A model generated the notes under the pieces. It did no database searches. It saw only the letters and a program-made list of their open reading frames with translations, and was not told the origin of the DNA. Shown here piece by piece: positions 8,871 to 30,218 of a stretch of DNA of 32,091 bases (positions are counted from its first letter, which is position 1; every line of letters begins with the position of its first letter). This stretch comes from Deltaproteobacteria bacterium (lineage in GTDB: Bacteria; Desulfobacterota; Syntrophia; Syntrophales; Smithellaceae): the NCBI GenBank assembly GCA_012729055.1, contig JAAYDW010000025.1, positions 1 to 32,091 on the forward strand, in the 5' to 3' direction. The translations under genes were made by a program, and so were the position numbers.

Positions 8871-8877
8871 GACAGAG

Positions 8878-10764
8878 ATGTTTATCAAGGCCGACATCCG
8901 GAAAATCACCGTCGCCGTGGAAAAGGAAAGGGCGTCCGAGGTTTACCTCGCGCTGGGCCGGGCGGGCATCGTCCACCTGGCCCGGTTTCTGGAACGCGAC
9001 GCCGCTCTGACGTCGGGGCTCGCCCAGGAGGAGGCGCGCATCCGGGAAATCATCGCTACGACGGATTATGCGCAAAACGCCCTGCAGATCGAGCCGTATG
9101 AAGCCTTCCTTCCCGAGGCGGCGATGAACAAGGAAGCGGATGCGGCGTTTGCCGCGGCGGCCCGAAAGACGCTTGCGCGCGCCCTGCGCCTGCGCGCCCG
9201 CATCGGCCGCGCCGCCGACGCCGTGGCGCGCCGGATCGCCTGCGGCGCGGCCCTGCGCGCGCTGGGGATCGATCCCGGAGTGCTTCAAAAGGCCCGGCTG
9301 GTGAAAACGGTTTTCGGCACGATGGAGGACGAAACAAAGGAGCTGCCCGCACAGAGCCGCTTTCTTTTTGCCCGCTCCGGGCGCTTTGTCTTCGGCCTTG
9401 CGCTTCCGGAAGAGGAGGCGGCGCTCGGCGAGTTTCTCAAGAATTCCGGCTTTGCCGACGCGTCGGCGGACGTCTCGGACCTGCCGCCCGAGCGTCTCGA
9501 GGCCCGGGCGGCAAGTCTCGCGCGGCGCGGCGAGGTTGTTTTGCGCCGCCTGGAGCGCCTGAAAGAGGAAAAAGGGGAGCAGCTCCGGCGCCTGAACAGC
9601 GCCTACCGCGCCTACGAGGAAATGCTCAAGGCCGCCTGCACGTCCCTTCAGTCCGACCGCGCCGTGTTCATTACGGGCTGGATGGATGCGCGCGACAGAG
9701 GCAGGCTTGAGGAAATCCTCCGGGACATTTGCGCCGGCCGCTTCATCATCGCCGAGCGCCGCGACAAGGCCGCGCCGGTCCGCCTGCTGAACATCCCCTG
9801 GCTCAAGCCCTTTGAGCTTCTGGTCCGGACGATGGGCATGCCGTCGGGCGGCGAGATCGATCCCACGCCGCTTACGGCCGTGACCTTCACGCTCATGTTC
9901 GGCCTGATGTTCGGCGATCTGGGGCAGGGGCTCGTGCTGGCCTTGGGCGGCTGGCTCCTAAGAAAGTTCGGCCTGAAAAAAATGAAGGAGGACCTGGTTG
10001 AAGCGGGCGGCATCCTGATGATCTGCGGGTTTTCCGCCGCCGCTTGCGGCCTTCTTTACGGCAGCCTGTTTTCGAGCGAACACCTGATTCCAGCCCTGTG
10101 GTTTCATCCTACCCAAAACATCATGACGCTCTTTGCCGTGACGATTCTGATGGGCGTGGTCTTCATCGCGCTCGGACTGGCCGTCCATATTCTCAACAGC
10201 CTGCTTAACGCCGACTACGTCGAGGCTTTCCTGGAAAAGCGCAGCCTGGCGATCCTGGTCCTGTATGCCGCCGTCATTGTTTTTGCCGTCGATTTCCAGC
10301 GGACAGGCGGGCTGCCCCCGCTGTGGGCGCTTTTTGCCTTTGTCCTTTTTCCCCTGCTCGTCTTTTCGCTGCGCGGGCCGCTCGGCGCTCTTCTCTTTGC
10401 GGCGGAAAAGCCGCACGGCTGGGCGGAGTATATCGTGGAAACGGTCATGGATATCGTCGAAATCGCGCTCGGCCTCTTTGCCAATACGATTTCATTCATC
10501 CGCGTGGGAGCGTTTGCCCTTTCCCATGCGGGCCTCAGCATCGTGACTTACACGCTCGCCGGCATGGCCGATCCGGCGCTTCGGTCCGTGGGCGCAATTC
10601 TCATTGTGATCGCAGGCAACATTTTTATTATCGGCTTTGAAGGGTTGATCTGCGGAATTCAATCCATGCGTCTTGAATACTACGAGTTTTTCAGTAAATT
10701 TTTTCAGGGGGACGGCGTGGCGTTTCGCCCGTTCACCCTGAAGGCAAAAGCAGCGGAGGTGTGA
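8878..10764 (+). CDS. atpI: A/V-type ATPase subunit I (membrane a-subunit)
   Basis: A 628-residue protein. The N-terminal half (to about 310) is soluble and partly coiled-coil, the stator arm that binds the peripheral stalks. The C-terminal half is a bundle of about eight membrane spans forming the ion half-channels. The essential channel arginine is visible in FIRVGAFALSHA (R542), the counterpart of the conserved Arg facing the proteolipid carboxylate. The loop GLMFGDLGQG is a family hallmark. Start ATG 8878 lies seven bases after the previous stop with only a weak GGACAGAG ribosome site; upstream codons in the same frame overlap subunit C and lack family similarity. The stop overlaps the region of the proteolipid ribosome-binding site. 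Confidence 0.93.
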   Translation: MFIKADIRKITVAVEKERASEVYLALGRAGIVHLARFLERDAALTSGLAQEEARIREIIATTDYAQNALQIEPYEAFLPEAAMNKEADAAFAAAARKTLARALRLRARIGRAADAVARRIACGAALRALGIDPGVLQKARLVKTVFGTMEDETKELPAQSRFLFARSGRFVFGLALPEEEAALGEFLKNSGFADASADVSDLPPERLEARAASLARRGEVVLRRLERLKEEKGEQLRRLNSAYRAYEEMLKAACTSLQSDRAVFITGWMDARDRGRLEEILRDICAGRFIIAERRDKAAPVRLLNIPWLKPFELLVRTMGMPSGGEIDPTPLTAVTFTLMFGLMFGDLGQGLVLALGGWLLRKFGLKKMKEDLVEAGGILMICGFSAAACGLLYGSLFSSEHLIPALWFHPTQNIMTLFAVTILMGVVFIALGLAVHILNSLLNADYVEAFLEKRSLAILVLYAAVIVFAVDFQRTGGLPPLWALFAFVLFPLLVFSLRGPLGALLFAAEKPHGWAEYIVETVMDIVEIALGLFANTISFIRVGAFALSHAGLSIVTYTLAGMADPALRSVGAILIVIAGNIFIIGFEGLICGIQSMRLEYYEFFSKFFQGDGVAFRPFTLKAKAAEV

Positions 10765-10766
10765 AG

Positions 10767-11105
10767 ATGACCAAAGACAAGCTGTCGGTGTTGGGGAAAG
10801 CGGCGATCCTCTGCATTCCGGCGTGGCTCGCGGCTCCGGCGGGAATTCTCCTGGCCCAGGGCGCGCCGGCGCAGGCGGGGGCGGGGGCGGACTGGATGGG
10901 GCTCGCCTATGTGGGCGCGGGGCTGGCGGTGGGCATGGCGTGTCTGGCCAGCGGCGTTGCCGTCGCCCGGATCGGCTCGTCGGCGATCGGGGCGGTGAGC
11001 GAGAAACCGGAGCTGATGGGCCGGACGCTGGTCTTTCTGGGCCTGGCGGAAGGAATTGCCATTTACGGGCTCATCATCGCCATCATGATTCTGAATAAGT
11101 TGTAA
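10767..11105 (+). CDS. atpK: A/V-type ATPase subunit K (proteolipid c-ring)
   Basis: A 112-residue proteolipid. Residues 10-40 form an extra N-terminal hydrophobic segment that looks like a signal or additional span. Residues 43-112 are a single helical hairpin, with the ion-binding carboxylate E95 in LGLAEGIAIYG. Sodium-type V-ring subunits carry a Gln in the first helix of the hairpin and Thr/Gln ligands around the second. Here the helix-1 site reads SGVAVAR with no Gln, and E95 is followed by Gly, so proton coupling is more likely (inference). The ATG at 10767 is chosen because GGAGGT ends six bases upstream; a GTG at 10761 overlaps the previous stop. The one-hairpin form implies one carboxylate per two spans and a ring richer in ion sites than the double-hairpin type. 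Confidence 0.88.
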   Translation: MTKDKLSVLGKAAILCIPAWLAAPAGILLAQGAPAQAGAGADWMGLAYVGAGLAVGMACLASGVAVARIGSSAIGAVSEKPELMGRTLVFLGLAEGIAIYGLIIAIMILNKL

Positions 11106-11106
11106 G

Positions 11107-11412
11107 ATGGAAAAGATTTACATGCTCGGGGACATGGATACCGTGAGCGCGTTTCGCCTCTGCGGCGTGGAAGGCGTGGTGGCCGGTCCGGAAGAAGCCG
11201 CCGCCGGGCTCGAAGCGCTCGCCGCCCGGCCGGACGCCGCCATCGTCCTGGTGACGAACCGGCTGGCCCGCCATCTGGAAGAGCGTCTCCTGGAGATCAA
11301 TCTGACGCGGCCGAGCCCGGTGATCATCGAGATCCCGGGCATCGACGACAAGGAAGGCTTCCGCCGGTCGGCCGTCGGCTACATCTCGGAGGCGCTGGGC
11401 ATTTCACTCTAA
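11107..11412 (+). CDS. atpF: A/V-type ATPase subunit F (central shaft regulator)
   Basis: A 101-residue Rossmann-like protein matching the V-ATPase F subunit family: the N-terminal strand MEKIYMLGDMDTVSAFRLCGV (typical .V.GD.D.V.GFRLAG) and PVIIEIPG followed by a charged helix near the C-terminus (typical P.ILEIPS). It binds subunit D in the rotating central shaft and modulates activity in characterised relatives. It begins two bases after the proteolipid stop and ends nine bases before subunit E, in line with a tightly packed operon. Confidence 0.88.
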   Translation: MEKIYMLGDMDTVSAFRLCGVEGVVAGPEEAAAGLEALAARPDAAIVLVTNRLARHLEERLLEINLTRPSPVIIEIPGIDDKEGFRRSAVGYISEALGISL

Positions 11413-11421
11413 GGAGCGGAC

Positions 11422-12048
11422 ATGGACGATACGGTGCTGGAAAAATCCATCCGGGAAGAAGCGGCGCGGCTGATTGCCGCCCTGCGGGAAAAGGAGGCGG
11501 CCGCCATCCGGACGCTGGAAGAGGAGCATGCCGCCCGGCTGGAACAATTCCGGCGGCAGGAGGCGAAAGAGGCTGAGGCGCGCCGGGAGCAGGAACTGGC
11601 CAAGCTCGAAAACCGGGCTGTTCTCGAACGCAAGAAGCTGAGGCTCCGGAGCCTGGAGCGATTTCTCGGCGACATGGTGGCCGGGACGGTCCGGGACGTG
11701 CAGCGCACGGCGGCCTACAAGACATTTTTGCTCGCGTCCGTCCGGAATGCCGCAAAAAGGATTTCCGGCGAGGCCCAAATCCGCGTGAAGCCCGAGGATC
11801 TGGTCTGGCAAGACGAGATTCTTGCCGCCGCCGGCGACCGTACCGCTTCCGTCGCGGCGGACCCGGGAATCGCGTGGGGCGGCTGCCTGGTCCGGGACGC
11901 GGCGGGCGGACGCATATTCAACGTGACGCTGGAGCGGATTTATTTCCGGAAGTCCGCGCTTCTCCGCCGAAAGGCCATGCAGCTTCTGGCGGATCATGCC
12001 CGCGGCAAAGCGCCGGGAACGACGCCGCGGCAAAAGGTGGAGGCGTGA
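11422..12048 (+). CDS. atpE: A/V-type ATPase subunit E (peripheral stalk)
   Basis: A 208-residue protein. The first 85 or so residues are a long coiled coil of alternating acidic and basic residues (LREKEAAAIRTLEEEHAARL), and the rest is a globular domain with GGCLVRDAAGGRIFNVTLE near residue 155, the conserved GG....D..G.I...NT..ER signature of subunit E. It pairs with the G/H subunit of gene 7618 to form the stator and caps subunit B. ATG 11422 has a good AAGGAG site at 11412-11417. The C-terminal tail after about residue 190 is basic and unstructured-looking. Confidence 0.88.
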   Translation: MDDTVLEKSIREEAARLIAALREKEAAAIRTLEEEHAARLEQFRRQEAKEAEARREQELAKLENRAVLERKKLRLRSLERFLGDMVAGTVRDVQRTAAYKTFLLASVRNAAKRISGEAQIRVKPEDLVWQDEILAAAGDRTASVAADPGIAWGGCLVRDAAGGRIFNVTLERIYFRKSALLRRKAMQLLADHARGKAPGTTPRQKVEA

Positions 12049-12050
12049 AG

Positions 12051-13823
12051 ATGGAAGACGTGCTCGCCGGAAAAGTGATCGCCGTCAACGGCCCGATTGT
12101 CCGGGCGCAGGGACTGGGCGGCATCAAGATGTTCGATATCGCCGAGGTCGGCGCCGACCGCCTGATCGGCGAAGTGATCCGGCTTGCGGGCGAGATTGCC
12201 ATCATCCAGGTGTACGAGGACAACACCGGCCTTAAGCCGGGGGACGAAGTGATCTCGTACGGGCGGCCGCTTTCCGTATTGCTCGGTCCGGGCCTGATCG
12301 CCAATATCTACGACGGCATTCAGCGGCCGCTGGTCGGCATATCCGAGGCGTGCGGCAGTTACATCCGCAAGGGCATCAAGCTCTCGCCGCTGGATACGCA
12401 GAAAAAGTGGGATTTCCGGCCGCTGGTGAAAGCCGGCGGCGTCGCCGGCGAGGGAACGCTTCTGGGGGAGGTCCGCGAAAGCCCGCTGGTCATGCACCGG
12501 GTGCTTGTGCCGCCGGGCGTGTCCGGAAAACTGACGAAGCTCGCCCCGGCCGGAGCCTACACGATTGAAGAAGAGATCTTCACCGTGGAGGCGGAAACGG
12601 GAACCTACGCCGGAAGGCTTGCCGCCTACTGGCCGGTGCGCAGGCCGCGCCCCAACCGGAACCGGAAGAAGCCGGTCGTACCGCTCATCACGGGGCAGCG
12701 GATCATCGATACATTTTTCCCCATCGCCCGCGGCGGGACGGCCGCCATCCCCGGCGGCTTCGGCACGGGGAAGACCATGACGCAGCACGCGCTCGCGAAG
12801 TGGTGCAACGCGGACATCATCGTATACATCGGCTGCGGCGAGCGCGGCAACGAGATGACGGATGTTCTGACGGACTTTCCGAAGCTCATCGACGAGCGCA
12901 ACGGCCGGCCGCTGATCGAACGCACCGTGATGATCGCCAACACCTCCAACATGCCGGTGCCCGCCCGCGAGGTCAGCATTTACACCGGCGTGACCATCGC
13001 GGAATATTACCGCGACATGGGCTACAGCGTCGCCGTGATGGCGGATTCCACCTCGCGCTGGGCGGAGGCCCTGCGCGAGCTTGCAAGCCGACTGGGCGAC
13101 ATGCCGGCGGAGGAAGGGTTCCCGCCTTACCTGGCCACGCGGCTGGCCGAGTTTTACGAACGGGCGGGGCTGGTGGAGACGCTCTCGGGCAGCGACGGAG
13201 ACATCACCATCATCGGCGCCGTCTCGCCTCCCGGCGGGGATTTCTCGGAGCCGGTGACCCAGCACACATCGAGGTTCGTGCGCTGTTTCTGGGCGCTGGA
13301 CAAGACGCTGGCCGACGCCCGGCACTACCCGTCGATCAGCTGGATCGAAAGCTATACCGAGTACCTGGCCGATATCGAAGACTGGTGGAAGACGCTGGAC
13401 GCCCGGTGGTTCGACATTCGCAATGAGGCGATGAACATTCTGCTTGAGGACCACCGCCTCGAACAGGTGGTGAAGCTTGTGGGGAGCGACGCCCTGCCGC
13501 CGGCCCAGCAGTACATCCTGCTTTGCGCGGAGACGATCAAGAACGCCTTTTTGCAACAGAACTCCTTCGATCCCGAAGACAAATTCTGCAGCCCGGAAAA
13601 ACAGATCCGGATTTTATCAGGCCTGCTGCTTTTGTACCGCAGGGGGCTCGACCTCGTGCAGAAAGGCGTCGGCGTCAAGCAGATCGCGGCGCTCGATGCG
13701 GTTTCCGGCCTGGTCCGGCTCAAGTCGGAAATTCCGAACCGGGATCTGTCCGGCATCGACGCGCATCTTCAGAGGCTGGAAGAAGCCCTGGCCGCGCTGG
13801 CTGCGGCCCCCACCGGAGGATGA
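12051..13823 (+). CDS. atpA: A/V-type ATPase catalytic subunit A
   Basis: A 590-residue catalytic subunit that binds and hydrolyses (or makes) ATP in the A3B3 head. The P-loop reads GGFGTGKT with K241; the family form is usually GPFGSGKT, so a Pro is Gly here. The catalytic Glu sits in [10 protein letters not shown] (E264). [22 protein letters not shown] and the [13 protein letters not shown] block are typical of subunit A and distinguish it from B. The N-terminal barrel and the non-homologous insertion (about residues 115-190) are present and the length is normal. ATG 12051 is two codons after an in-frame GTG; AGGTGGAGG at 12034-12042 favours the ATG. Subunit B starts one base after its stop. 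Confidence 0.96.
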
Positions 13824-13824
13824 G

Positions 13825-15216
13825 ATGACGGCAGAAATCGAATACACCAACCTGTCGGGTATTTCCGGCCCGCTGATCTTCGTCGACGGCGTCGCCGGCG
13901 TGGGCTACGGGGACATCGTGGAAATCCGCGACAAGACGGACCGGTTGCGGATCGGCCAGACGCTGGAGATCGATCAGGAGAAGGCCGTCGTCCAGGTGTT
14001 CGAGGGCACGAGCGGGCTTTCCGTGACGGATACCCGGGTGACCTTCGTCGGCCGGGCCCTGGAGATTCCGGTGGACCGCGACATGCTGGGCCGGGTTTTC
14101 GACGGCCTGGGCCGGCCCATCGACGGAGCGCCGCAGGTCGTCACGGATCGGGTGATGAACGTCAACGGCCTGCCGATCAACCCCTGGAGCCGGGAGTATC
14201 CCCGGGACTTCATCCAGACCGGCATTTCCGCGATCGACGGCATGAACACGCTGATCCGCGGGCAGAAGCTGCCGATCTTTTCGGGAAGCGGCATGCCGCA
14301 CAACCGAATTGCCGCCCAGATCGCGAGGCAGGCGCGGATTCTGACGGCGGAGGAGGAGTTCACGGTCATCTTCGCCGCGATGGGCGTCAAGTTCGACGTG
14401 GCGCGGTTTTTCATCGATTCCCTGGAGGAGTCGGGCGTGCTGACCCATTCGGCCATCTTTTTGAGCCTCGCCGATTCGCCCTCCATCGAACGCCTCGTCA
14501 CGCCGCGCACGGCGCTCACGCTCGCGGAGTACCTGGCCTTTGAAGAAGGAATGCACGTGCTGGTCATCCTCACCGACATGACCAACTACTGCGAGGCTCT
14601 CAGGGAGCTTTCCAGTTCGCGCGGCGAGATTCCCTCGCGCAAGGGGTATCCCGGCTATCTCTACAGCGACCTCGCCTCCGTATACGAACGGGCGGGCCGG
14701 CTCAAGGGCGGCCGGGGGTCGATCACGCAGGTGCCGATTCTCACGATGCCGAGCGACGATATTTCCCATCCTGTTCCCGATCTCACCGGCTACATCACCG
14801 AGGGGCAGATCGTCCTGGAGCGGGCGCTCTTCAACAAGGGCATCTATCCGCCCATCGCGGGCCTGCCTTCCCTGTCGCGGCTGATGAAGGACGGCATCGG
14901 CGAAGGCCGCACGCGCAGGGACCACGGCCAGGTGGCGGCCCAGTTGTTCGCTTCCTACGCGAAGGTCAAGCGCATCCGGGCGCTTGCCGCCATCGTGGGG
15001 GAGGAAGAGCTTTCTGAGCTCGACAAGATTTACCTCAAGTTCGGGACCGCGTTTGAGGAAATCTTTTTGCGGCAGGACTACGAGGAAAACCGTTCCATCG
15101 AACAGACGCTGGACATCGGCTGGCGGATGCTGTCGCTGCTTCCGAAAGACGAGCTCTACCGCATCGGCCGAGAAGAGATCCAGCGCTACTACATGCCCGA
15201 GGCGGAGAACACATAA
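13825..15216 (+). CDS. atpB: A/V-type ATPase regulatory subunit B
   Basis: A 463-residue non-catalytic nucleotide-binding subunit that alternates with A in the head. The degenerate P-loop ([18 protein letters not shown], about residues 154-171) is the hallmark separating B from A. Other signatures are [40 protein letters not shown] and [17 protein letters not shown]. It has normal length and no internal anomaly. It starts one base after subunit A, and its TAA shares one base with the ATG of subunit D (TAATG), indicating translational coupling. Confidence 0.96.
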
Positions 15217-15836
15217 TGCCCGGAATCGAACTGCCCCCGACCAAGTCGTCCCTGCGCCGGCTCAAGGAGGATCTCGCCTTCGCCTACGAAGGGTACGATC
15301 TGCTCAACCAGAAGCGCGAGATTCTGGCCCTGGAGATTGTCCGGAAGATCGACGAGATCCGCCGGACCGAGGCGGACTTTCAGCGGGCGCTCGACGACCT
15401 TTACGACGCTTACCGGGGCGCGGCTGTGGACATCGGGGCCGACGCCGCGGCGCTCGCGAGCTGCGCGGAGCGGAAAAGCTATACGCTCTTGATGGAGGTG
15501 AATAAGTTGATGGGGCTGCGGCTGGTGAACTTCCGCCTGTCTCTGAAAAAGCTCCGCGCGCCGGTCGCCTTTCCCCGGACAAGCGCCTCCTACGACGAGG
15601 CCCGCAACCGGTCGCGGAACGCGCTGGCGCTTTTGGCGCGGTACGCGACCATCACCAAATCCATCATTTTGCTTTCGCGCGAGTTGAAAAAAGTACAGCG
15701 CCGCGTGAACGCCCTGGAGAAGATTTTCATTCCGCAGCATGAAGAGGCGAAGAAATACATCACGGACAGAATCGAGGAGATGGAGCGCGAGGAAGTATTC
15801 GTGAAGAAGCTGATCCGTCAGCGTCAGACCCGGTAA
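15216..15836 (+). CDS. atpD: A/V-type ATPase subunit D (central shaft)
   Basis: A 206-residue protein, with long N- and C-terminal helices that would pack as the antiparallel coiled coil of the rotor. The N-terminal PTKSSLRRLKEDLAFAYEGY (family form PT...L..L...L..A..G..LL..K) and C-terminal KKVQRRVNALEKIFIP (R.V.ALE...IP) are diagnostic. It transmits rotation between the A3B3 head and the C/K ring. It is the last conventional ATPase gene; the following gene starts 44 bases later without a visible terminator between them. Confidence 0.93.
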   Translation: MPGIELPPTKSSLRRLKEDLAFAYEGYDLLNQKREILALEIVRKIDEIRRTEADFQRALDDLYDAYRGAAVDIGADAAALASCAERKSYTLLMEVNKLMGLRLVNFRLSLKKLRAPVAFPRTSASYDEARNRSRNALALLARYATITKSIILLSRELKKVQRRVNALEKIFIPQHEEAKKYITDRIEEMEREEVFVKKLIRQRQTR

Positions 15837-17392: not shown

Positions 17393-19318
17393 CTACGCTT
17401 GCGCGCCGGCTAAAAATCCCTCCCGAATGGCTTCGAGGGCGTTTCTCGATTTCAGCGCATCGCCGACAATCTTAAGGGGTGCCATTCCTTCCAGTTCTTT
17501 GGCCAATGCATTCTCCGGCTCCATGCCCAGAGCCAAAACGACGGTATCCGCGGCGATGTCGAACAATTCTGCGTTTTGTTCGATGCGGACGCCTGTGTCG
17601 GTGATGCCGGTTATTTTCGCCTCGGTCAGAACCCGGATGCGCTGGTCGTCGATCATCTTCAAAAGAAAAAAGCGGCGGGTGGATTCTTCATCCGCGGCGA
17701 TCGTCGGCAGCATCTCCAGAATCGTGACCTGTCGGCTAAGCGAGGCAAGATACGTCGCCGTCTCGCAGCCGATCATTCCTCCTCCGGCGATAACCACTTT
17801 TCGTTTGACGGACACCCGGCCTGTCAGAACCTCTTCGGCCGACACCACGGTGGGGCCGTCGATGCCCGGAATCGGGGGGCTCGCGCAGCAGGCGCCTGTG
17901 GCGATGATGACCAGAGACGGATTTTCGCTGCGGCAAATCTCCTTCGTGTAGGGTGTTTTTAATTTGACGGTGACGCCCAGCTTTTCAACCTGCCGCGCGG
18001 CCCACGCGATATAGGAAGAAAGCTCGCCTTTGGCCGGCGGAACGGCCGCCGCGGCAAATTGCCCGCCCAACCGGTCCGCTTTTTCATACAGCGTGACGTC
18101 ATGACCGGCCAGCGCCGCGGTTCGGGCGGCTTCCATTCCCGCCGGGCCTCCTCCCACCACGGTGATCTTCCGTGGGGTCTCCGCTTTTTTGAATTCCTGC
18201 CGGTACTCATAGCCGCACGTGGGATTGACCAGGCAGCGAATGGGCTCGTTCCGGCGCAGAATCTCCCGGCACCCTTGCTGGCAGCCGATGCAGCGGCGGA
18301 TATCCTCGTATCGCCCCTCGGCAAATTTATTGGGCAGGTCGGGATCGGCCAGGGAGGCTCTGCCCATGGCGATCAGATCGGCCTTCCCCGACCGCAGAAT
18401 GCTTTCCGCCAGGAACGGATCGTTGATGCGTCCCACGGTCATGACCGGAAGAGACACCACTTTTTTAACTTCCGCCGCGTAGTCGACAATCCATCCGGGA
18501 GGGATGTTCATGGGAGGAACAATGGCCCAGGGGCTCTCGTAAGTTCCGGCGGAAACATGCAGCAGATCGACGCCCTGTTTTTCGAGCCGGATGGCGACGG
18601 CTTTCGTTTCTTCGATGGCGCGTCCGCCGGGAACTTTTTCATCGCCCGAGATCCGGAAACCGATCAGAAAATCGGGGCCGCATTTTTTCCGGATGTCCGC
18701 GATGATTTCCAGAGGAAAGCGCAGGCGGTTTTCCAGGGGACCGCCGTAGGCGTCGCTGCGTTTGTTGGAGTAGGAGGACATGAACTGGGCAATCAGATAA
18801 CCGTGCGCGCCGTGGACTTCCACGCCGTCAAAGCCGGCCTGGCTGGCGCGCAGGGCCGTATCGCCGAACTGCGAAACGATCTTTTCGATTTCCGCGACGG
18901 ACAATTCCCGGGGAATTTCCCCCATGGCGGGACAGGGCAGGGGGGAAGCGGAAACGGGCTTAGCGCCGATGAGGCCGGCGCTCGTTTGCCTGCCGGCATG
19001 GTAGATTTGCGCGATGATCGCGGCGCCTGCGCGCCGGACCCGTTCGGTGAGGCGGGCATGCGACGCGATCTGTTCGTCTTTCCACAAGCCGGGCGTCCAG
19101 AAGCCCCTGCCCAGGGGATCGACCGCGTAGTCTTCGACAATGATCATTCCCCACCCGCCTTTGGCTTTGGTTTCATGATAGGCGATAAAGCGTTCGGTGG
19201 CCATTCCGTCCGTATCGCAATACACCGTGACCATCGGGGACACGACCAGCCGATTTTTGATTTTAACGCCGCCGATGGACAGAGGTGATAAAAGGGGACT
19301 GGGATTTGTTGTCGTCAT
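17393..19318 (-). CDS. Old-yellow-enzyme family NADH:flavin oxidoreductase / 2,4-dienoyl-CoA-reductase-like
   Basis: A 641-residue multi-domain flavoprotein. Residues 1-335 form an FMN-binding TIM barrel (GARPVSASPLPCP-like region, HGAHGYLIAQFMSSYSNKRSD, DAYGGPLENR). A 4Fe-4S cluster site lies around 341-365 (CIGCQQGC then a later Cys in NPTCGYE). From about 380 there is an FAD-binding region with GGGPAGMEAA, and near 505 an NAD(P)-binding GGGMIGCETA. This is the FadH/BaiH/trimethylamine-dehydrogenase architecture, carrying electrons NAD(P)H-FAD-FeS-FMN to an enoyl or dienoyl substrate. ATG 19318 has an excellent AAGGAGG ribosome site. It lies 244 bases downstream of gcdA on the same strand with a hairpin between, so it may be a separate or attenuated transcript. 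The substrate is probably an unsaturated CoA ester, by context. Confidence 0.88.
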   Translation of the reverse strand: MTTTNPSPLLSPLSIGGVKIKNRLVVSPMVTVYCDTDGMATERFIAYHETKAKGGWGMIIVEDYAVDPLGRGFWTPGLWKDEQIASHARLTERVRRAGAAIIAQIYHAGRQTSAGLIGAKPVSASPLPCPAMGEIPRELSVAEIEKIVSQFGDTALRASQAGFDGVEVHGAHGYLIAQFMSSYSNKRSDAYGGPLENRLRFPLEIIADIRKKCGPDFLIGFRISGDEKVPGGRAIEETKAVAIRLEKQGVDLLHVSAGTYESPWAIVPPMNIPPGWIVDYAAEVKKVVSLPVMTVGRINDPFLAESILRSGKADLIAMGRASLADPDLPNKFAEGRYEDIRRCIGCQQGCREILRRNEPIRCLVNPTCGYEYRQEFKKAETPRKITVVGGGPAGMEAARTAALAGHDVTLYEKADRLGGQFAAAAVPPAKGELSSYIAWAARQVEKLGVTVKLKTPYTKEICRSENPSLVIIATGACCASPPIPGIDGPTVVSAEEVLTGRVSVKRKVVIAGGGMIGCETATYLASLSRQVTILEMLPTIAADEESTRRFFLLKMIDDQRIRVLTEAKITGITDTGVRIEQNAELFDIAADTVVLALGMEPENALAKELEGMAPLKIVGDALKSRNALEAIREGFLAGAQA

Positions 19319-19562: not shown

Positions 19563-21326
19563 CTACTCCGGCCTGTCTTGCCCCTTCACGATTTGCGAAC
19601 GGATGATCCGCGGAAGAATCATCTGGTGCTGCGGACAGATGGCCCGGGGATTCTGATAGCAGCAGTTGGCAAAGCCCACCAGATAGCTGCGCAGCTCGGC
19701 GTAGCGCACGATTTCATCGACAAACCCCTTCTTCGCGCAAAAGAGCGGACCGGAAGTATCGTCGTAGTGCTGCACCATCTCGTTCATCCTGGCGATGATC
19801 GGCCCCAGCGGCCGGCCCGCGTCCTTCTCCTTCACCAGCCGCCGGGCGTAGCTTGCCGCCGCCGCCGTCTCCCCGTGCATGACGTTGATCTCCGTCGTGG
19901 CGGTCCCCAGTGAAAACGCATTGTTGTTGTTTGCCGTGGGGCCGCCCAGAACGTAATGCGCCGCCGCCGTTCCCTTGCGCAGCACCACCAGCATCATCGG
20001 CAAATGCGAGTTCTCAATCGAGTAGATGAGCGACTGACCCAAGCCTAAAAGCTCCGCCTTTTCCGCAATGTCCCCCACGTCGATGCCGGAGGTGTCCTGA
20101 AACCAGACCATCGGCACCTTGTCGCGCGAACACAGCGTGACAAACTCGCTCATCTTGATCAGCCCCTGCCGGTAGAGCTTGCCGCCCACGCCCATGTATT
20201 CGTTTGTGTATTCCGGATAATTGGGGAAAGCTCCCTGGCGGTTGCCGACGACCCCCATGAGGTAGCCGTCCACCTTCACCAAGCCGCAGTACATTTCCGG
20301 ACCGAAGCCGGGGCGGAACTCCAGGTGCTCCGAGCCGTCCACGAGTCTCGCCAGGACCTGCTCGAAATCGTAAACCCGCTTTTTGTTGACCGGAATGATC
20401 GAGGCGATCTCTTCAGGCGGATAAGCCGGTTCGGCCGGAGGCGCCACCCGGAAGAAGCGCGGATGGTAGGCGGGCAGATCGTCCATGTAGTCCTTGATGG
20501 CGTCGAGCACCTGCGTTTCCTCGTCGAAGACCGCCCGGAAGAATCCGGTGACGTCGTAGTGGACTTTCACGCTGCCGGGCGGGACGGACTTGAAGTGCCG
20601 CGTGGCGTTGATGAGCTCTTCCGCGCCTTCCTCATCGAAAAACCCCTTGGGAGACATGCCGCTTACGATGCCGCCGCCGCCCACGGCCATGTTGGCCTTC
20701 CTGTGCGCCAGCAGAATCGTCGGGCTGATCGACTGGTAGCCGCCGCCCGCCGGATTCGTGCCGTAAATGCCGGCGATGACCGGAATGCCCATCTGCTCGA
20801 GCTCCGCGTGCCGGAAAAAGCAGGTCCCCTGGCCCCGACGGTTGGCGTACATCTTCTCCTGTTCGGGCAGCTTCACGCCGGAGCAGTTCACCAGCCACAC
20901 CAGCGGCAGGTGCAGAATCCTGGCGATGTCCGTTACGCGCAGGTTGTTCTCCGGCTGGCCCGCGATCCACGCGCCCGCCATCCACTTGTTGTTGAACCCG
21001 ATGAGAACGCACCACTTGCCCCGGATGCGCGCCAGGCCGTCCACCACGCCGGTGCTCCCCGATTCCTCGTTCTCCGGATCGAAGATGCTGTGCAGCGGGC
21101 AGAAGGTCCCCGGATCGACCAGGTACGCGATGCGTTCCCAGACGCTCATCTCGCCCCGGTCGTGCAGCGTCTGCAATGATACGCCCACGTTTTTGATCCG
21201 CTCGACTTCCGCGTCGACGGTCTGCATGATCTCCTCGATCTTCGCGCAGTTCTCCCGCATGCTCTCGGTCTGCCGCGCGGAAAGGGGCTTCCCCAGCGGA
21301 TCCATTTTTGCAAAGTATTGTTTCAT
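19563..21326 (-). CDS. gcdA: Glutaconyl-CoA decarboxylase alpha subunit (biotin-dependent carboxyltransferase)
   Basis: A 587-residue carboxyltransferase, the same length as characterised GcdA proteins. Recalled GcdA blocks are present in order: GKWCVLIGFNNKWMAGAW, LVWLVNCSGVKLPEQEKMY, IAGIYGTNPAGGGYQSISP, GVGGKLYRQGLIKMSEFVTL, LGLGQSLIYSIENSHLP and PRAICPQHQMILPR. GcdA transfers CO2 from glutaconyl-CoA to the biotin of a carrier subunit, giving crotonyl-CoA. The membrane beta, biotin gamma and delta subunits are not in this window, so they must be encoded elsewhere if the sodium pump is complete. It lies 17 bases after the acyl-CoA dehydrogenase gene on the same strand, a pairing that supports a glutaryl-CoA to crotonyl-CoA route. 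A generic propionyl/methylmalonyl carboxyltransferase is less likely given length and blocks. Confidence 0.9.
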   Translation of the reverse strand: MKQYFAKMDPLGKPLSARQTESMRENCAKIEEIMQTVDAEVERIKNVGVSLQTLHDRGEMSVWERIAYLVDPGTFCPLHSIFDPENEESGSTGVVDGLARIRGKWCVLIGFNNKWMAGAWIAGQPENNLRVTDIARILHLPLVWLVNCSGVKLPEQEKMYANRRGQGTCFFRHAELEQMGIPVIAGIYGTNPAGGGYQSISPTILLAHRKANMAVGGGGIVSGMSPKGFFDEEGAEELINATRHFKSVPPGSVKVHYDVTGFFRAVFDEETQVLDAIKDYMDDLPAYHPRFFRVAPPAEPAYPPEEIASIIPVNKKRVYDFEQVLARLVDGSEHLEFRPGFGPEMYCGLVKVDGYLMGVVGNRQGAFPNYPEYTNEYMGVGGKLYRQGLIKMSEFVTLCSRDKVPMVWFQDTSGIDVGDIAEKAELLGLGQSLIYSIENSHLPMMLVVLRKGTAAAHYVLGGPTANNNNAFSLGTATTEINVMHGETAAAASYARRLVKEKDAGRPLGPIIARMNEMVQHYDDTSGPLFCAKKGFVDEIVRYAELRSYLVGFANCCYQNPRAICPQHQMILPRIIRSQIVKGQDRPE

Positions 21327-21343
21327 GGCTTACTCCGTCGAAG

Positions 21344-22501
21344 TTATGCCCGGTTGGGCGCAAATCCCATGGTGGCGTTGGCGACGATCATCGTGTGCAT
21401 GTTGGAGGTGCCTTCCAGCGTCTCGAACTGCTTGGAGTCGCGCAGGAAGCGGCCGCAGGGGTATTCGTCGGAATAGCCGAACGAACCGTAAAGCTTCATG
21501 CACTCATTGGCGTCGTGGACGACGACTTTTGCGCTGTAGAGCTTGGACATGGAGGTCTCCATGACGTTGGGCAGACCCTTGTCCTTGAGCCAGGCCGCGC
21601 GATAGACCAGATAGGCCAGCGTGTCATGGCCGATTTTCATGTCCGCCACCTGCTGCTGGATGAGCTGGTAACGGCCGATTTGTTTGCCGAACTGGCAGCG
21701 TTCCGTGGCGTATTTGGCGGAGGCGTCGAGAATGGCGCCGGAGAGGCCCAAAGCGCCCGCGGAGCAGCCCAGGCGGGTGGAGTTGAGCTGCGTCATGCAG
21801 ATCTGGAAACCGCGGTTGAGTTTGCCCAAAAGCAGATGCTTGGGAACCTTCACGTCCTCAAACGTGATTTCCGCCGTGTCGGAGGCCCACAGGCCGACTT
21901 TGTCGTGAATCGGTTTGCGCGTGATGCCGGGAAGAGAGTAATCCATGATGAAGCAGCTCACGCCGTTTGCGCCCGCGTCCTTGTCCGTTTTGACGTACAG
22001 GAGGCCGTGGTTGCAGACGGTGCCGTTGGTGATCCACATCTTGTTGCCGTTCACCAGATAATAATCGCCCTTGTCCTCGGCGCGGCATTTCATGGAGGCG
22101 ACGTCCGAGCCGATGTCCGGTTCGGTCATGGCGAAGCTGCCGACGTATTCGCCGGAGACGAATTTGGGAATGTAGTGCTCTTTCTGTTCCTCGGTTCCGA
22201 ACTTCTGAATGGTGAGCGCCGGGCCCCAGCACTGCATGTTGAAGGCCATGCGCCAAGCCGTGTGCACTTTGGCCACCTGTTCGATGGCGAGCGCGCCTTC
22301 CAGAAAGCCCATGCCGTTGCCGCCGAATTTTTCGTCGATGCAGAAGCCGAAAAATCCCAGTTCGGCCATCTTGTCAAAGATTTCCTTGCGCCAGAAATGA
22401 TTTTTCTCGTCTTCCTCGACGTGCGGCGCGATTTCCTTTTCGGCGAAGTTCCTCGCCGTATCCGAAATCATTTTTTGTTCTTCCGTCAATGCAAAATCCA
22501 T
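21344..22501 (-). CDS. Acyl-CoA dehydrogenase, probable non-decarboxylating glutaryl-CoA dehydrogenase
   Basis: A 385-residue FAD-dependent acyl-CoA dehydrogenase, starting MDFALTEEQK at 22501 behind GGAGGAGAAAAT; codons further upstream are leader. FAD/substrate block FAMTEPDIGSDVASM and catalytic base E363 in LEGTSNMH are present. Alignment by eye to human glutaryl-CoA dehydrogenase retains the gamma-carboxylate-binding Arg (R84, Arg94 in human). The Glu87 place is Ala77, and the Tyr before the catalytic base is Leu362. Loss of that Glu/Tyr pair is the reported mark of enzymes that stop at glutaconyl-CoA (Desulfococcus, Syntrophus type). The next gene, gcdA, then performs the decarboxylation. 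Substrate assignment is inference; another dicarboxylyl-CoA is the main alternative. Confidence 0.85.
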   Translation of the reverse strand: MDFALTEEQKMISDTARNFAEKEIAPHVEEDEKNHFWRKEIFDKMAELGFFGFCIDEKFGGNGMGFLEGALAIEQVAKVHTAWRMAFNMQCWGPALTIQKFGTEEQKEHYIPKFVSGEYVGSFAMTEPDIGSDVASMKCRAEDKGDYYLVNGNKMWITNGTVCNHGLLYVKTDKDAGANGVSCFIMDYSLPGITRKPIHDKVGLWASDTAEITFEDVKVPKHLLLGKLNRGFQICMTQLNSTRLGCSAGALGLSGAILDASAKYATERCQFGKQIGRYQLIQQQVADMKIGHDTLAYLVYRAAWLKDKGLPNVMETSMSKLYSAKVVVHDANECMKLYGSFGYSDEYPCGRFLRDSKQFETLEGTSNMHTMIVANATMGFAPNRA

Positions 22502-22603: not shown

Positions 22604-23869
22604 TTATTTTCTTTCGATCACCATGCAGATGCCCTGGCCGCCGCCGCCGCAAATCGTTTCCAGGGCGAAGCGGGCGTCGCGCCGCGCCATTTCGCCAAGC
22701 AGCGTGGTGAGCCGCATCGTGCCGGTTGCCCCGATGGGGTGCCCCAGCGAAATGCCCGACCCGTTGACGTTGACCTTCGCGTCCATCTGTTCGTCGGAAA
22801 GTCCCGCCAGGCGAGAGTCCGCGAGGCACTGCACGGCAAAGGCTTCCTGCACTTCAATCAAATCCATGTCGGCAATGGTTTTGCCGGTCTTCGCGAGCGC
22901 CTTGGCGACGGCCGCCGGAACGGCCGGGTACGTGAGCGTCGGATCGGTGGCCGCGACCGCGCAGGAGCGGTAGTAGGCGATCGGTTTAATGCCCAGTTCC
23001 TTCGCCTTCTTTTCGGACGCGAGGATCACCGCGGCCGACCCGTCGTTTTCCGAAGAGGAGTTGCCGGCCGTGCAAACGCCGTCCTTGTAAACGGTTTTGA
23101 GTTTGGCCAGTTTCTCCAGCGTGGTTTCGCGGCGGGGGCCTTCATCCGTTTTAAAGAAAAGATCCTGGCCGCTTTTATCCTTGCCTGCCGGCACCGGCGC
23201 AATTTCATCGACGAATTTTCCCGCGTCCTGCGCCGCGATGGCTCGCTCGTGGGACCTGAGCGCCCAGCGGTCCGCTTCTTCGCGGGTGATGCCTTCTTTT
23301 TTGGCCGCGGCTTCGGCCCAGGTCATCATGGAACTCAGTTCCCCGTAGCGCCAGATGGGCTGGCTCATGACTCGGCCCCGCTGAATCCGGTCGTAAAAGG
23401 GGATGCCCCACATGGCGAGCGCCCCGTGGCCGCGCGGCATGAAGCCGTATTTTTCATGGCTCTTGCCGCCCAGTCCCCACTTGATGTCTCCGGGGATGTA
23501 GAGTTCGCCCTGGCTCATCGACTCCATGCCGCCCGCGATGACAATGTCGGCGTTGCCGGTTTGAATCTGCAAAGCGCCGTAATACACGCTTTCCAGGCCG
23601 GAGCAGCAGCGCCGGTCGATCATGCCGCCGGGAATGGTATCCGGCCAGTCGGCATCGAGGACGGCCATGCGCGCGCCGTTGGCGCACTCGCCGTTCTGAT
23701 AGGCCGAGGCCATGATGACGTCATCCACCTGGGACGGATCGATCCCCGCTTTTTTAACCGCCGCCTGCAGAACAACGCTGGCCAGGCGATAAACCGGCAC
23801 GTTCTTCAGCGCTCCGCCGTACGCGCCGATCGGCGTCCGCGCGCAACTGATAAAAACGACATTTTCCAT
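22604..23869 (-). CDS. Thiolase (acetyl-CoA acetyltransferase family)
   Basis: A 421-residue thiolase. The nucleophile C88 lies in RRCCSGLE, H377 in GHPIGATG and the acid-base C407 in CGGGGQG; VAGGMESMS and ENDGSAAVI segments are also present. In most thiolases the DLxExNEAFA motif supplies an Asn to the oxyanion site; here it reads DLIEVQEAFA with Gln341. It would cleave acetoacetyl-CoA or another 3-ketoacyl-CoA to acetyl-CoA at the end of the pathway served by the next two genes. It is first in the minus-strand block, 102 bases before the dehydrogenase, with a GGGGTGC ribosome site and a sigma-54-type promoter about 205 bases upstream. Confidence 0.92.
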   Translation of the reverse strand: MENVVFISCARTPIGAYGGALKNVPVYRLASVVLQAAVKKAGIDPSQVDDVIMASAYQNGECANGARMAVLDADWPDTIPGGMIDRRCCSGLESVYYGALQIQTGNADIVIAGGMESMSQGELYIPGDIKWGLGGKSHEKYGFMPRGHGALAMWGIPFYDRIQRGRVMSQPIWRYGELSSMMTWAEAAAKKEGITREEADRWALRSHERAIAAQDAGKFVDEIAPVPAGKDKSGQDLFFKTDEGPRRETTLEKLAKLKTVYKDGVCTAGNSSSENDGSAAVILASEKKAKELGIKPIAYYRSCAVAATDPTLTYPAVPAAVAKALAKTGKTIADMDLIEVQEAFAVQCLADSRLAGLSDEQMDAKVNVNGSGISLGHPIGATGTMRLTTLLGEMARRDARFALETICGGGGQGICMVIERK

Positions 23870-25405: not shown

Positions 25406-26389
25406 ATGCCGAACGGCGCGACAACGAAAAGGAAAGACGCCCAGGTAACGCTGGTGGAAGTATCGCCGCGGGACGGGCTGCCGGCCGTTTGCGACGGATT
25501 GTCGACGGCGGAGAAGATCCGCTACATCAACAAGCTGTCGGAGACGGGGCTGAGGAAGATCGAGTGCGCGTCGTTTACACATCCCCGGCTGCTGCCGGAA
25601 GGGTACGACGCGGAGCGGTTGATTGCGGGGATTGCGAAGAAGCCGGACGTGACGTACGTAGGGCTGGTTCCCAACGAGATCGGGTGCCGGCGGGCGATGA
25701 TCACGCAGATTGACGAGATATTGATTTTGCTTGCGGCCTCCGACACGTTCAATATGCTGAACCTGGGAAGAAGCCTGAAGGAGAGTTTGCACAAAATGCT
25801 GCCGTCGATTTTGAAGACGGCGGCGCAGAACCACCGGAGTGTTCGGGTGTATGTGATGACGGCGTTCGGGTGTCCCTACGCAGGTCGGATCCGGCCGGAG
25901 GAAGTGGCCGAGCTGGTGCTGAAGCTGGGCTACATGGGGGCGTCGGAGATTGCGCTGGTGGACTCGACGGGGATGGCGAATCCAAAGACCGTGCGGGAGA
26001 CGATCGGCGCGGTGGCGGAGCAGAGCCTGGACATCAGGCTGGCGGTGCATTTTCACAATACGCGGGGGGCGGCGATTGCAAACTGCATGGCGGCGTACGA
26101 GGCGGGGGTGCGGATCTTCGACACGTCGCTGGGAGGGATGAGCGCCACGCCCTACGGCGCAAGCGAGCAGGATCTGGGCTACTGGAATGTGCCGACGGAG
26201 GATCTGGCGCATCTCTTCGAGGAGATGGGGATCCGGACCGGAATCGACTTGGAGGGGCTTCTGGAGTGCGTGCGGATGGCGGAGAAGATGGCGGGACGGG
26301 CCCTGCCGGGCCACATCCTGCGGGCGCGCCCCGCCTCCCAGATCTTCGAAATCCCCCAGTATCTCAAACGCCAGCAGATCCTCGACTGA
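25406..26389 (+). CDS. HMG-CoA-lyase-like (DRE-TIM) protein with atypical active site
   Basis: A 327-residue TIM-barrel protein of the HMGL-like (pyruvate-carboxyltransferase-domain) family. Metal and catalytic Arg/Asp are kept in VSPRDG (R22, D23), and the metal histidines in HFHNT (H215, H217). Departures from HMG-CoA lyase are strong: HFHDT is HFHNT, the loop that carries the catalytic Cys (GGCPYA) reads MSATPYG with Thr248 in its place, and the DGLQNEK segment is DGLPAVC. A true HMG-CoA lyase role is therefore uncertain; another acyl-CoA aldol cleavage or condensation is possible. It lies 64 bases after the sigma-54 activator and behind a sigma-54-like promoter. Start ATG 25406 has AAGG at 25400-25403. 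Confidence 0.78.
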   Translation: MPNGATTKRKDAQVTLVEVSPRDGLPAVCDGLSTAEKIRYINKLSETGLRKIECASFTHPRLLPEGYDAERLIAGIAKKPDVTYVGLVPNEIGCRRAMITQIDEILILLAASDTFNMLNLGRSLKESLHKMLPSILKTAAQNHRSVRVYVMTAFGCPYAGRIRPEEVAELVLKLGYMGASEIALVDSTGMANPKTVRETIGAVAEQSLDIRLAVHFHNTRGAAIANCMAAYEAGVRIFDTSLGGMSATPYGASEQDLGYWNVPTEDLAHLFEEMGIRTGIDLEGLLECVRMAEKMAGRALPGHILRARPASQIFEIPQYLKRQQILD

Positions 26390-28085: not shown

Positions 28086-30218
28086 GTGACCAAGCATGCT
28101 CAAATGAAGCAATGGAAAGAAGCCGCCCTCCGGGAGCTCAAGGGCAAGCCCCTGGAGGCGCTCGACTGGGAGACGCCGGAAGGCATCGCCGTCAAGCCCA
28201 TTTACACCGCTGAAGATCTGGAAGGCCTGGACACCGTCGACACCCTTTCCGGTCTGCCTCCCTATTTGCGGGGGCCCTCGGCCACCATGTATGCCAATCA
28301 GCCCTGGACCATCCGCCAGTACGCGGGATTTGCCACGGCGAAGGAATCCAATGAATTCTACCGGAAGAATCTTGCCGCGGGACAGACGGGTCTGTCCGTA
28401 GCCTTTGATCTCGCCACCCACCGGGGGTACGACTCGGACCATCCCCGCGTGGCGGGCGACGTCGGCAAGGCCGGCGTGGCCATCGACTCCGTCGAGGACA
28501 TGAAAATCCTCTTCGACCGGATTCCGCTCGACAAGGTTTCGGTTTCCATGACCATGAACGGCGCCGTCCTGCCGATTCTGGCGGGATACATCGTAGCCGC
28601 CGAGGAGCAGGGCGTGGCGCAAAAGCAACTGGCCGGCACCATTCAAAACGACATTCTCAAGGAATTTCTGACGCGCAACACTTACATCTACCCGCCGCGG
28701 CCCTCCATGCGGATCGTTTCCGACATCATCGCCTACGCGTCGAAAAACATGCCGCGATACAACACCGTTTCGATCAGCGGCTACCACATCATGGAAGCGG
28801 GCGCGGACTCGGTCCTGCAGACGGCTTTCACGCTGGCCGACGGCAAGGAGTACATCCGCGCCGCGATCGACGGCGGATTGAAAATCGACGACTTCGCTCC
28901 GCGCCTGTCGTTTTTCTTCGGCGTGGGCATGAACTTCTTCATGGAAATCGCAATGCTGCGCGCAGCGCGGTGTCTGTGGCACAAGATCGTGGGCGAGTTC
29001 CAACCGACCAACCCGCGCTCGCAGGTGCTCCGAACCCACGTGCAGACCTCCGGCTGGAGCCTCACTCAGCAGGACCCCTACAACAACATCATCCGGACCA
29101 CGCTCGAAGCGCTGGCCGCGGCGCTGGGCGGAACCCAGTCGCTGCACACCAACTCGTTTGACGAGGCGGTGAGCCTGCCGACGCCTCTGTCTTCGCGCAT
29201 CGCCCGCAACACGCAGATCATCATTCAGGAGGAATCGCAAATCTGCCACGTGGTCGATCCCCTGGGCGGCTCCTACTACGTGGAAGCGCTCACGGCGTCC
29301 ATCATCCGGGAAGCCAAAAAGATCATGGACGAAATCGAGGAGCTGGGCGGCATGGCCCGGGCCATTGAAACCGGCATGCCGAAGATGCGCATTGAAGAAT
29401 CGGCGGCCCGGCGGCAGGCCCGCATCGATCAGGGCAAAGACACCATCGTCGGCGTGAACAAATACCGGGTTCAGGACGAAGTTCCCGTCGAGGTGCTGGA
29501 CATTTCCAGCAGCGTGCGCGACGAACAGATCGCGCGCTTACGAGAGATCAAGTCCGGCCGCGACAACGCCGCGGTGCAGAAGGCCCTCGCGCACATTACG
29601 CAGGTCGCCGAAAAGGGCGGCAATCTTCTGGAAGCCGCTATCGAGGCGGTGCGGCTGCGGGCCACGGTGGGCGAAGTGTCCGATGCCGTGGAGAAGGTTT
29701 TCGGCCGCTACGTCGCCACCACGCGGGTGATCTCCGGCGCGTACTCTTCCGAATACGGCGACAGCGAAGTTCTTCGGTCGCTGCGGGTCCGGACGGAGAA
29801 GTTCCTGGAAAAGACCGGCCGCCGTCCCCGCTCGCTCGTGACCAAAATGGGTCAGGACGGCCACGACCGGGGCATCAAGGTGGTGGCCACCGCCTACGCG
29901 GATGTCGGCTTTGATGTGGATATCAGCCCGATGTTTCAAACGCCGGAGGAGGCGGCCAAAATGGCCATTGAAAACGACGTGCACGTGGTAGGCGTTTCGA
30001 GCCTCGCGGCGGGCCACAAGACCCTGGTGCCGCAGCTCATCGAGGAATTGAAGAAGATGGGCGGCGAGGATATTCTCGTCGTGGTCGGCGGCGTCATTCC
30101 GCCCGCGGATTACGATTTCCTCTATGCAAAAGGCGTCAGGGGCATTTTCGGTCCCGGCACGGCCGTGACCGATTCGGCCGACAGGGTGCTTAAACTGCTG
30201 GAGGAAAAATACCTCTAG
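28086..30218 (+). CDS. Methylmalonyl-CoA mutase, full-length B12-dependent catalytic chain
   Basis: A 710-residue single chain with the substrate TIM barrel (about 1-560) and the cobalamin domain (about 580-710). B12 base-off histidine motif DGHDRG lies near residue 590. Active-site blocks are conserved: IRQYAGF (Tyr89 of the Propionibacterium enzyme), [17 protein letters not shown] (the carboxylate-binding Arg207) and SGYHIMEAG (His244). One departure is ANQPWT, where most mutases have FRPWT; Gln72 replaces the CoA-contacting Arg82. It interconverts (R)-methylmalonyl-CoA and succinyl-CoA. No small MutA-like partner adjoins, so it is probably a homodimer. It starts at GTG 28086 with AAAGGAG at 28071-28077. 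A carboxyltransferase fragment at the right edge points to a methylmalonyl-CoA/propionyl-CoA step. Confidence 0.94.

Follow-up and report, generated by a model that had tools for sequence, protein, structure and literature searches.

A divergent dehydrogenase encoded beside gcdA in a Smithellaceae bacterium probably separates glutaryl-CoA oxidation from decarboxylation

Introduction

Does the acyl-CoA dehydrogenase encoded next to gcdA in a Smithellaceae genome release its product undecarboxylated, leaving decarboxylation to a second protein, and is that second step coupled to sodium export? The question is raised by a 32,091-nucleotide stretch of DNA (contig JAAYDW010000025.1, assembly GCA_012729055.1), which as a whole is called the window here. 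The original prediction held that the dehydrogenase keeps the Arg that holds the distal carboxylate (R84), and has Ala77 and Leu362 where decarboxylating glutaryl-CoA dehydrogenases (GcdH) have Glu and Tyr. This was taken as the signature of a non-decarboxylating enzyme, with oxidation and decarboxylation split between two proteins and the latter open to coupling with sodium export.

Such a split is already in print. A gene for a non-decarboxylating glutaryl-CoA dehydrogenase adjoins gcdA in Geobacter bemidjiensis (Gbem_1452/Gbem_1453), as described in 2010 in a section of PMC2996986, where the other three decarboxylase subunits are reported missing. A passage of PMC5852087, citing work on Desulfococcus, gives the split for Desulfococcus multivorans and sodium-pump coupling for strict anaerobes. 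To this known kind the window adds a pair that is new and divergent. We consider it probable that its dehydrogenase makes glutaconyl-CoA from glutaryl-CoA (or a very similar dicarboxylyl-CoA) and that GcdA decarboxylates this product, the two steps being split between two proteins. The pair and the residues concerned are arranged as follows (aa, amino acids; nt, nucleotides):

21344..22501, minus strand: acyl-CoA dehydrogenase, 385 aa, ATG at 22501; proposed non-decarboxylating glutaryl-CoA (or close dicarboxylyl-CoA) dehydrogenase
22271..22273, minus strand: Ala77 codon; Glu in decarboxylating GcdH; coordinates by arithmetic from the ATG at 22501
22250..22252, minus strand: Arg84 codon; the distal-carboxylate Arg, human Arg94
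21416..21418, minus strand: Leu362 codon; decarboxylating GcdH has Tyr here, and most GcdA-linked relatives have Val
21413..21415, minus strand: Glu363 codon; catalytic base position
21327..21343, minus strand: 17-nt gap from the dehydrogenase stop to the gcdA start
19563..21326, minus strand: gcdA, 587 aa, ATG at 21326; carboxyltransferase (alpha) subunit of glutaconyl-CoA decarboxylase

The predicted coordinates, lengths and 17-base spacing of the two genes were correct, and both reading frames lie on the minus strand.

Active-site residues of the dehydrogenase

In the alignment, the window dehydrogenase has A/R/L/E at positions 77/84/362/363, and 3mpi, which we take to be the glutaryl-CoA dehydrogenase of D. 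multivorans, has A/R/V/E in the same columns. Two plasmid-borne references, L275 and L277, have E/R/Y/E. Their annotation is acyl-CoA dehydrogenase only, or none, and they were assigned to the GcdH type from their best solved relatives, the glutaryl-CoA dehydrogenases 3d6b for L275 (675 bits) and human 1siq for L277 (622 bits). The plasmid search returned mostly isovaleryl- and general acyl-CoA dehydrogenases; three proteins were fetched, and the two of GcdH type became the references. The E and Y columns of these references fall on Ala77 and Leu362 of the window enzyme, so that the kept Arg and both substitutions are confirmed.

These positions are not equally informative. A passage of PMC8360864 gives YEG, in which a Tyr precedes the catalytic Glu, as a general motif of acyl-CoA dehydrogenases, and the generality is also visible in the window genome's own dehydrogenase rows; thus the loss of Tyr362 is notable, but the presence of Tyr is no proof of decarboxylation. 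Because ordinary acyl-CoA dehydrogenases also lack Glu77, the informative feature is Arg84. According to a section of PMC3169403, the Arg at this position in GcdH forms a hydrogen bond with a Tyr that contacts the terminal carboxylate. As judged from the alignment, the real signal is Arg84 combined with the absence of Glu77; the predicted signature stands in this combination, but not in the Tyr, which is general, or in the missing Glu, which is common.

Neither Arg84 nor Glu77 was found in the other dehydrogenases of the window genome (0 of 16 readable rows, from 19 distinct rows of which 3 have a gap there; matches without a locus were left out of this count), and on this basis another dehydrogenase of the genome was rejected as the true glutaryl-CoA enzyme. 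Among the matches listed, Arg84 occurs in 15 of 98 dehydrogenase rows, the window included, and Glu77 in none; these rows correspond to 80 named loci chosen for likeness to the query, and the counts are not prevalence.

GcdA and its linkage to the dehydrogenase gene

The next gene is gcdA, as predicted. Its product matches the solved GcdA proteins 3gf3 (741.8 bits) and 1pix (714.5 bits) colinearly and over nearly the full length, the next family scoring 151 bits. It also matches Pfam Carboxyl_trans, and with 587 aa it falls in the 587-588 aa length class of the solved proteins. At E <= 1e-120, a gcdA match was found in 113 of 395 genomes of the phylum. Of 124 matches, 118 were examined as loci after exclusion of a second copy (G350:C217) and of fragments (G258, G152, G103:C92, G125 and G286).

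A same-strand acyl-CoA dehydrogenase gene lies within 600 nt of gcdA in 57 of the 118 loci, upstream in 57 of 57, and seven further loci have one 661-2484 nt upstream. The 600-nt limit was our choice, and related genomes were counted separately, so that the loci are not independent events; most locus views spanned ~1.5-2.5 kb per side and some were ended by contig ends, which makes the linkage count a lower bound. The window genome holds 26 dehydrogenase matches in 3.36 Mb, and a chance neighbourhood was estimated at a few percent. The pairing occurs far above chance frequency and is not due to chance. Two of the 57 linked dehydrogenases are unreadable at the first two signature columns; in the other 55, Arg84 is present in 45 and Glu77 in none, and Tyr362 is found in none of the 57. 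The four-column signatures are ARVE (40), SRVE (3), ARLE (2, the window and its sister species G067), AGVE (4), AAGE (4) and SAFD (2). The AGVE enzymes beside gcdA are those of L212 (8252-9403, minus strand), L326, L327 and L331, and the L212 enzyme (L116 in the tree) groups inside the clade of the window enzyme and 3mpi. The AAGE type, a different dehydrogenase with Ala84, precedes gcdA in L324, L344, L346 and L347; in three of these genomes this gcdA is one of two copies.

Several relatives have larger gene groups. The order in L208, behind a DctP transporter gene, is gamma-like open reading frame (ORF; 61 aa), GcdB (376 aa), biotin carrier (71 aa), dehydrogenase and GcdA; in L211 it is dehydrogenase, GcdB, carrier and GcdA. 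In L205 and L209, a class III CoA-transferase (CoA_transf_3, 486.7 and 488.1 bits) is followed by GcdB, the dehydrogenase and a carboxyltransferase of another type (22-23% to GcdA), with a carrier seen in L205. Desulfoscipio geothermicus (L121) has dehydrogenase, carboxyltransferase, gamma-like ORF, carrier and GcdB, and G229, from the window's own family, has thiolase, dehydrogenase, two sucCD-like genes, GcdA and GcdB. Pfam and NCBIfam models were tested for a chosen protein set; the gamma-like ORFs and some carriers were recognised by eye, as were the sucCD, Hbd, TRAP permease, malic enzyme, MoxR and GAPDH genes of the relatives. These groups fit a sequence of dicarboxylate activation, oxidation, sodium-coupled decarboxylation and thiolysis. 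A counterpart of the class III CoA-transferase was sought in the window genome, and none of its six matches (at most 40% identity) was a clear one.

Family, phylogeny and structure of the dehydrogenase

The window dehydrogenase matches 3mpi with 313.8 bits and about 40% identity. NF045552, the curated NCBIfam model for the Desulfococcus-type enzyme, has a cut-off of 470 bits; it gives 726-756 bits for the canonical members in L202 and L204, and 443-517 bits for five further enzymes of the broader group, in L205, L208, L211, L121 and L212. No protein of the window genome scores higher with NF045552 than the window dehydrogenase, and a canonical Desulfococcus-type enzyme elsewhere in that genome was ruled out, since no match exceeds the cut-off.

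A tree was built from 61 selected rows, a subset of the homologues, and rooted on two GcdH rows. The window enzyme lies inside the group that holds 3mpi (41 rows with support 100/98; 40 rows with 100/99), and supported branches part it from both GcdH rows on which the tree is rooted. Within this group it belongs to a six-row subclade (100/100), sister to a 14-row clade (98/93) that contains the dehydrogenases of L205, L208 and L209. Arg84 is kept in all six subclade rows and the residues around it are changed; the 41-row group also includes four rows without Arg84. The AlphaFold model of the window dehydrogenase has a pLDDT (predicted local distance difference test score) of 90.5. 3mpi is its top structural match (Z 54.9, root-mean-square deviation 1.5, 382 aligned residues), tied with 8sgs (54.8) and 4l1f (54.6), and 1siq follows at 50.2. 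Overall, residues and phylogeny suggest that the window enzyme probably works like the Desulfococcus enzyme, yet it stands outside the NF045552 equivalog.

A number of observations weigh against assigning the window enzyme to a two-protein glutaryl-CoA pathway. Its NF045552 score of 377 bits is under the cut-off, as are those of three of its relatives (374.1, 394.9 and 389.3 bits), and its subclade is set apart by a long stem (0.53) and by Leu362 instead of Val. The structure comparison could not tell the window enzyme from ordinary short-chain enzymes (Z 54.9 vs 54.8), and structure was rejected as a means of distinguishing substrates because of these ties. No dehydrogenase gene lies within the 600-nt limit in 61 of the 118 gcdA loci, and among the linked enzymes four have Gly for Arg84 and six are of other types (AAGE and SAFD); therefore, linkage to gcdA alone is no proof of a glutaryl-CoA substrate. 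Of five genomes with a window-type enzyme, G000 and G067 alone have gcdA directly after its gene; the distance is 2.1 kb in G229 and 8.7 kb, on the opposite strand, in G271, and G083 has gcdA on another contig. L117 has a window-type dehydrogenase with no gcdA in view. Near that gene lie an HpaB-family gene and, by eye, thiolases (L117 1009-5215); 4-hydroxybutyryl-CoA dehydratases belong to the HpaB family.

Other decarboxylase subunits and sodium coupling

No gcdB-, gcdC- or gcdD-like gene lies beside the window gcdA, and the candidates found in the genome search are on other contigs. A stand-alone biotin carrier (71 aa, AMKM, Biotin_lipoyl 68 bits) on contig C23 may serve GcdA. The genome has a single OAD_beta (GcdB-like) gene, on contig C37 (L013 8362-9705, minus strand, 447 aa), in a locus that reads MoxR-like, OAD_beta, 1412-aa protein and GAPDH-like (names by eye). 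An 84-aa gamma-like ORF just upstream (L013 9754-10008, minus strand) scores 18.1 bits with OAD_gamma, under the cut-off of 27.

The C37 protein is aberrant. It has the motif GGAEGP, with Glu at the sodium-site Asp, and some 60-65 extra residues between predicted membrane segments 2 and 3 (placement by eye); residues 97-128 match Biotin_lipoyl and HlyD-type models, without the biotin lysine motif. A passage of PMC7274780 reports that D203A abolishes sodium binding in the oxaloacetate decarboxylase pump and that this Asp is required. By alignment alone, the Asp is present in 74 of 76 OAD_beta places, the other two being the C37 gene itself in two loci; some genes stand in more than one locus of this check, and five loci have no readable site. 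The Asp is also present in all 51 other distinct rows picked by a motif, which presupposed Asp or Glu at the site and missed seven loci. For the clade as a whole, sodium export is likely. In the window species sodium coupling is uncertain: its one GcdB-like protein carries Glu in place of the sodium-site Asp and contains an extra biotinyl-like domain. The predicted two-protein split is thus upheld by residues, gene order, clade and precedent, and the predicted sodium export is weakened; the genome search for gcdB, gcdC and gcdD likewise produced a stand-alone carrier and a GcdB-like gene, but with the altered site and a gamma candidate under the cut-off.

It is possible that the dehydrogenase and GcdA work as proposed and that this species exports no sodium with them, its membrane subunit being lost, altered or specific for another ion. 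Besides the altered and only OAD_beta, the G. bemidjiensis case as related in PMC2996986, with GcdA and without the other three subunits, is in line with this. On the other side, the C37 frame is open, of 63 highly conserved columns only 6 are changed in its product, and sister species G067 has an Asp-bearing OAD_beta at the same locus, flanked by a MoxR-like gene and a 1416-aa protein; moreover, the assembly consists of 113 contigs, and a second gcdB could sit in a gap. A more tentative extension is that a form with a Glu site and a biotinyl-like domain lacking the biotin lysine has taken the place of the membrane subunit at the latter's locus, working with another ion or without coupling, and that the Leu362 subclade drifted in substrate range.

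A divergent OAD_beta subtype, in which the Asp is kept and 37-42 highly conserved columns are changed, occurs in L198 (13949-15238), L199 (13621-14826) and L273 (7598-8851). It adjoins gcdA in L198 and L199 (genomes G229 and G271) and lies away from gcdA in G067 (L273). The 1412-1416-aa protein beside OAD_beta in both species (L013 3952-8190, minus strand; L273 9071-13321, plus strand) has a C-terminal part that by eye resembles pyruvate,phosphate dikinase. The window also contains V/A-type ATPase genes (7932-15836, plus strand). Sodium F-type rings have a sodium-site pattern of Gln and Glu-Ser/Thr; by eye, this pattern is absent from the putative V/A-ATPase ring subunit (114 aa, 10761-11105).

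Neighbouring genes and the substrate

The minus-strand order is thiolase, dehydrogenase, 17 nt, GcdA and an old-yellow-enzyme type reductase, and an acyl-CoA ligase is encoded on the plus strand together with two of the following genes:

22604..23869, minus strand: thiolase, 421 aa, upstream of the dehydrogenase; TIGR01930 over cut-off
17393..19318, minus strand: OYE/BaiCD-like flavoprotein reductase (old-yellow-enzyme type), 641 aa, downstream of gcdA
25406..26389, plus strand: hydroxymethylglutaryl-CoA (HMG-CoA) lyase-like protein; NF004283 274 bits, cut-off 246
28086..30218, plus strand: methylmalonyl-CoA mutase, 710 aa; NF006944 over cut-off

A thiolase also adjoins the window-type dehydrogenase in the relatives L088, L089 and L090, and is not found within 1.5 kb of it in L091. 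The flavoprotein reductase was not seen after gcdA in G067. Farther off in the window are a 616-aa protein that joins an acetyl-CoA hydrolase/transferase domain to a GNAT acetyltransferase domain (5007-6857, plus strand) and an Eco57I-type restriction-modification methylase that runs past the window edge (2-2860, minus strand).

Glutaryl-CoA is suggested as the substrate by sequence features. Its source is a further point of difficulty: the best genome match to 6-oxocyclohex-1-ene-1-carbonyl-CoA hydrolase (TIGR03200) has 80 bits against a cut-off of 464. With no ring-cleavage hydrolase over the cut-off, the route through benzoyl-CoA known from the described organisms is unsupported here, and benzoate was rejected as the source for this genome. 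With genes for HMG-CoA lyase, an acyl-CoA ligase and methylmalonyl-CoA mutase present on the plus strand, a methyl-branched substrate stays in play. The dehydrogenase would then use another dicarboxylyl-CoA, for example converting 3-methylglutaryl-CoA to 3-methylglutaconyl-CoA in a branched-chain route that the neighbouring HMG-CoA lyase and thiolase would complete. The divergence of the subclade, its altered surroundings of Arg84, its Leu for Val362 and the low NF045552 score all agree with such a change, as do the lyase over its cut-off with the mutase beside it and look-alike genes noted by eye in L198 and L199. We regard this as unlikely, however: GcdA is close to solved glutaconyl-CoA decarboxylase subunits, and in G000 and G067 its gene comes immediately after that of the dehydrogenase; inspection by eye of the 16-kb G067 contig brought up no HMG-CoA lyase, and the protein with an HMGL-like domain on that contig also has a carboxylase domain.

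Somewhat more doubtful still is a dehydrogenase of butyryl-CoA or crotonyl-CoA type, with GcdA fed from glutamate by a 2-hydroxyglutaryl-CoA dehydratase. The genome has ten matches to the 2-hydroxyacyl-CoA dehydratase family, Arg-less dehydrogenases precede gcdA in other loci, and Acidaminococcus fermentans 4l1f, named only an acyl-CoA dehydrogenase domain protein, matches the window enzyme as highly as 3mpi does (316 vs 313.8 bits). This reading has to face the Arg84 of the whole subclade and of 45 of 55 readable gcdA-linked enzymes, together with its absence from the 16 readable other dehydrogenases of the genome. In addition, the four dehydratase-family proteins scanned have best models (E <= 1e-40) that carry other names, and the only one over its cut-off is a double-cubane-cluster reductase (465.8 vs 350 bits; contig C74, L049 1489-2691, minus strand). 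Finally, it is very improbable that the window enzyme is itself a decarboxylating glutaryl-CoA dehydrogenase relying on different residues. It shares Arg84 with decarboxylating GcdH, but Glu77 and Tyr362 are both absent, supported branches separate it from the GcdH rows, and the adjoining gene encodes a decarboxylase subunit.

Discussion

According to the two-protein reading, which we prefer, the dehydrogenase would oxidise glutaryl-CoA or a very similar dicarboxylyl-CoA, with Arg84 holding the far carboxylate and Glu363 taking the alpha proton; glutaconyl-CoA would be released undecarboxylated, as the Glu77 and Tyr linked to decarboxylation are missing. GcdA, probably expressed from the same transcript as the closely spaced dehydrogenase gene, would move the carboxyl group of glutaconyl-CoA to a biotin carrier, yielding crotonyl-CoA, which a thiolase route may take to acetyl-CoA. 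The C23 carrier and the C37 GcdB-like protein would complete the decarboxylase complex.

Compared with known systems, the window dehydrogenase resembles the D. multivorans enzyme (3mpi/3mpj; NF045552) in fold, in the Ala/Arg/-/Glu pattern and in its well-supported clade, and NF045552-like relatives precede gcdA in many genomes; it differs in its identity of about 40%, its Leu for the Val, its separate long-stem subclade and its score under the NF045552 cut-off. It shares the fold, the far-carboxylate Arg and the catalytic Glu with human GcdH (1siq), but not the Glu77 and Tyr362 of decarboxylating enzymes. The placement of its gene beside gcdA is that of Gbem_1452/Gbem_1453. Unlike G. bemidjiensis, for which PMC2996986 in the section cited reports the subunits missing and describes a benzoate route, the window genome has a biotin carrier and an aberrant GcdB-like gene elsewhere and no ring-cleavage hydrolase over the cut-off. 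The window gcdA also departs from the gcdABCD grouping in having no gcdB-, gcdC- or gcdD-like neighbour.

When oxidation is separated from decarboxylation, anaerobes living close to the energetic limit can profit from a step that goes to waste in other bacteria. The gene order over 118 loci and the grouped genes of the relatives make this reading testable beyond the few organisms described, and they bring into view a subclade for which the curated family model has no name. In the window species, the altered membrane subunit would offer a natural test of the role of the sodium-site Asp in decarboxylase pumps.

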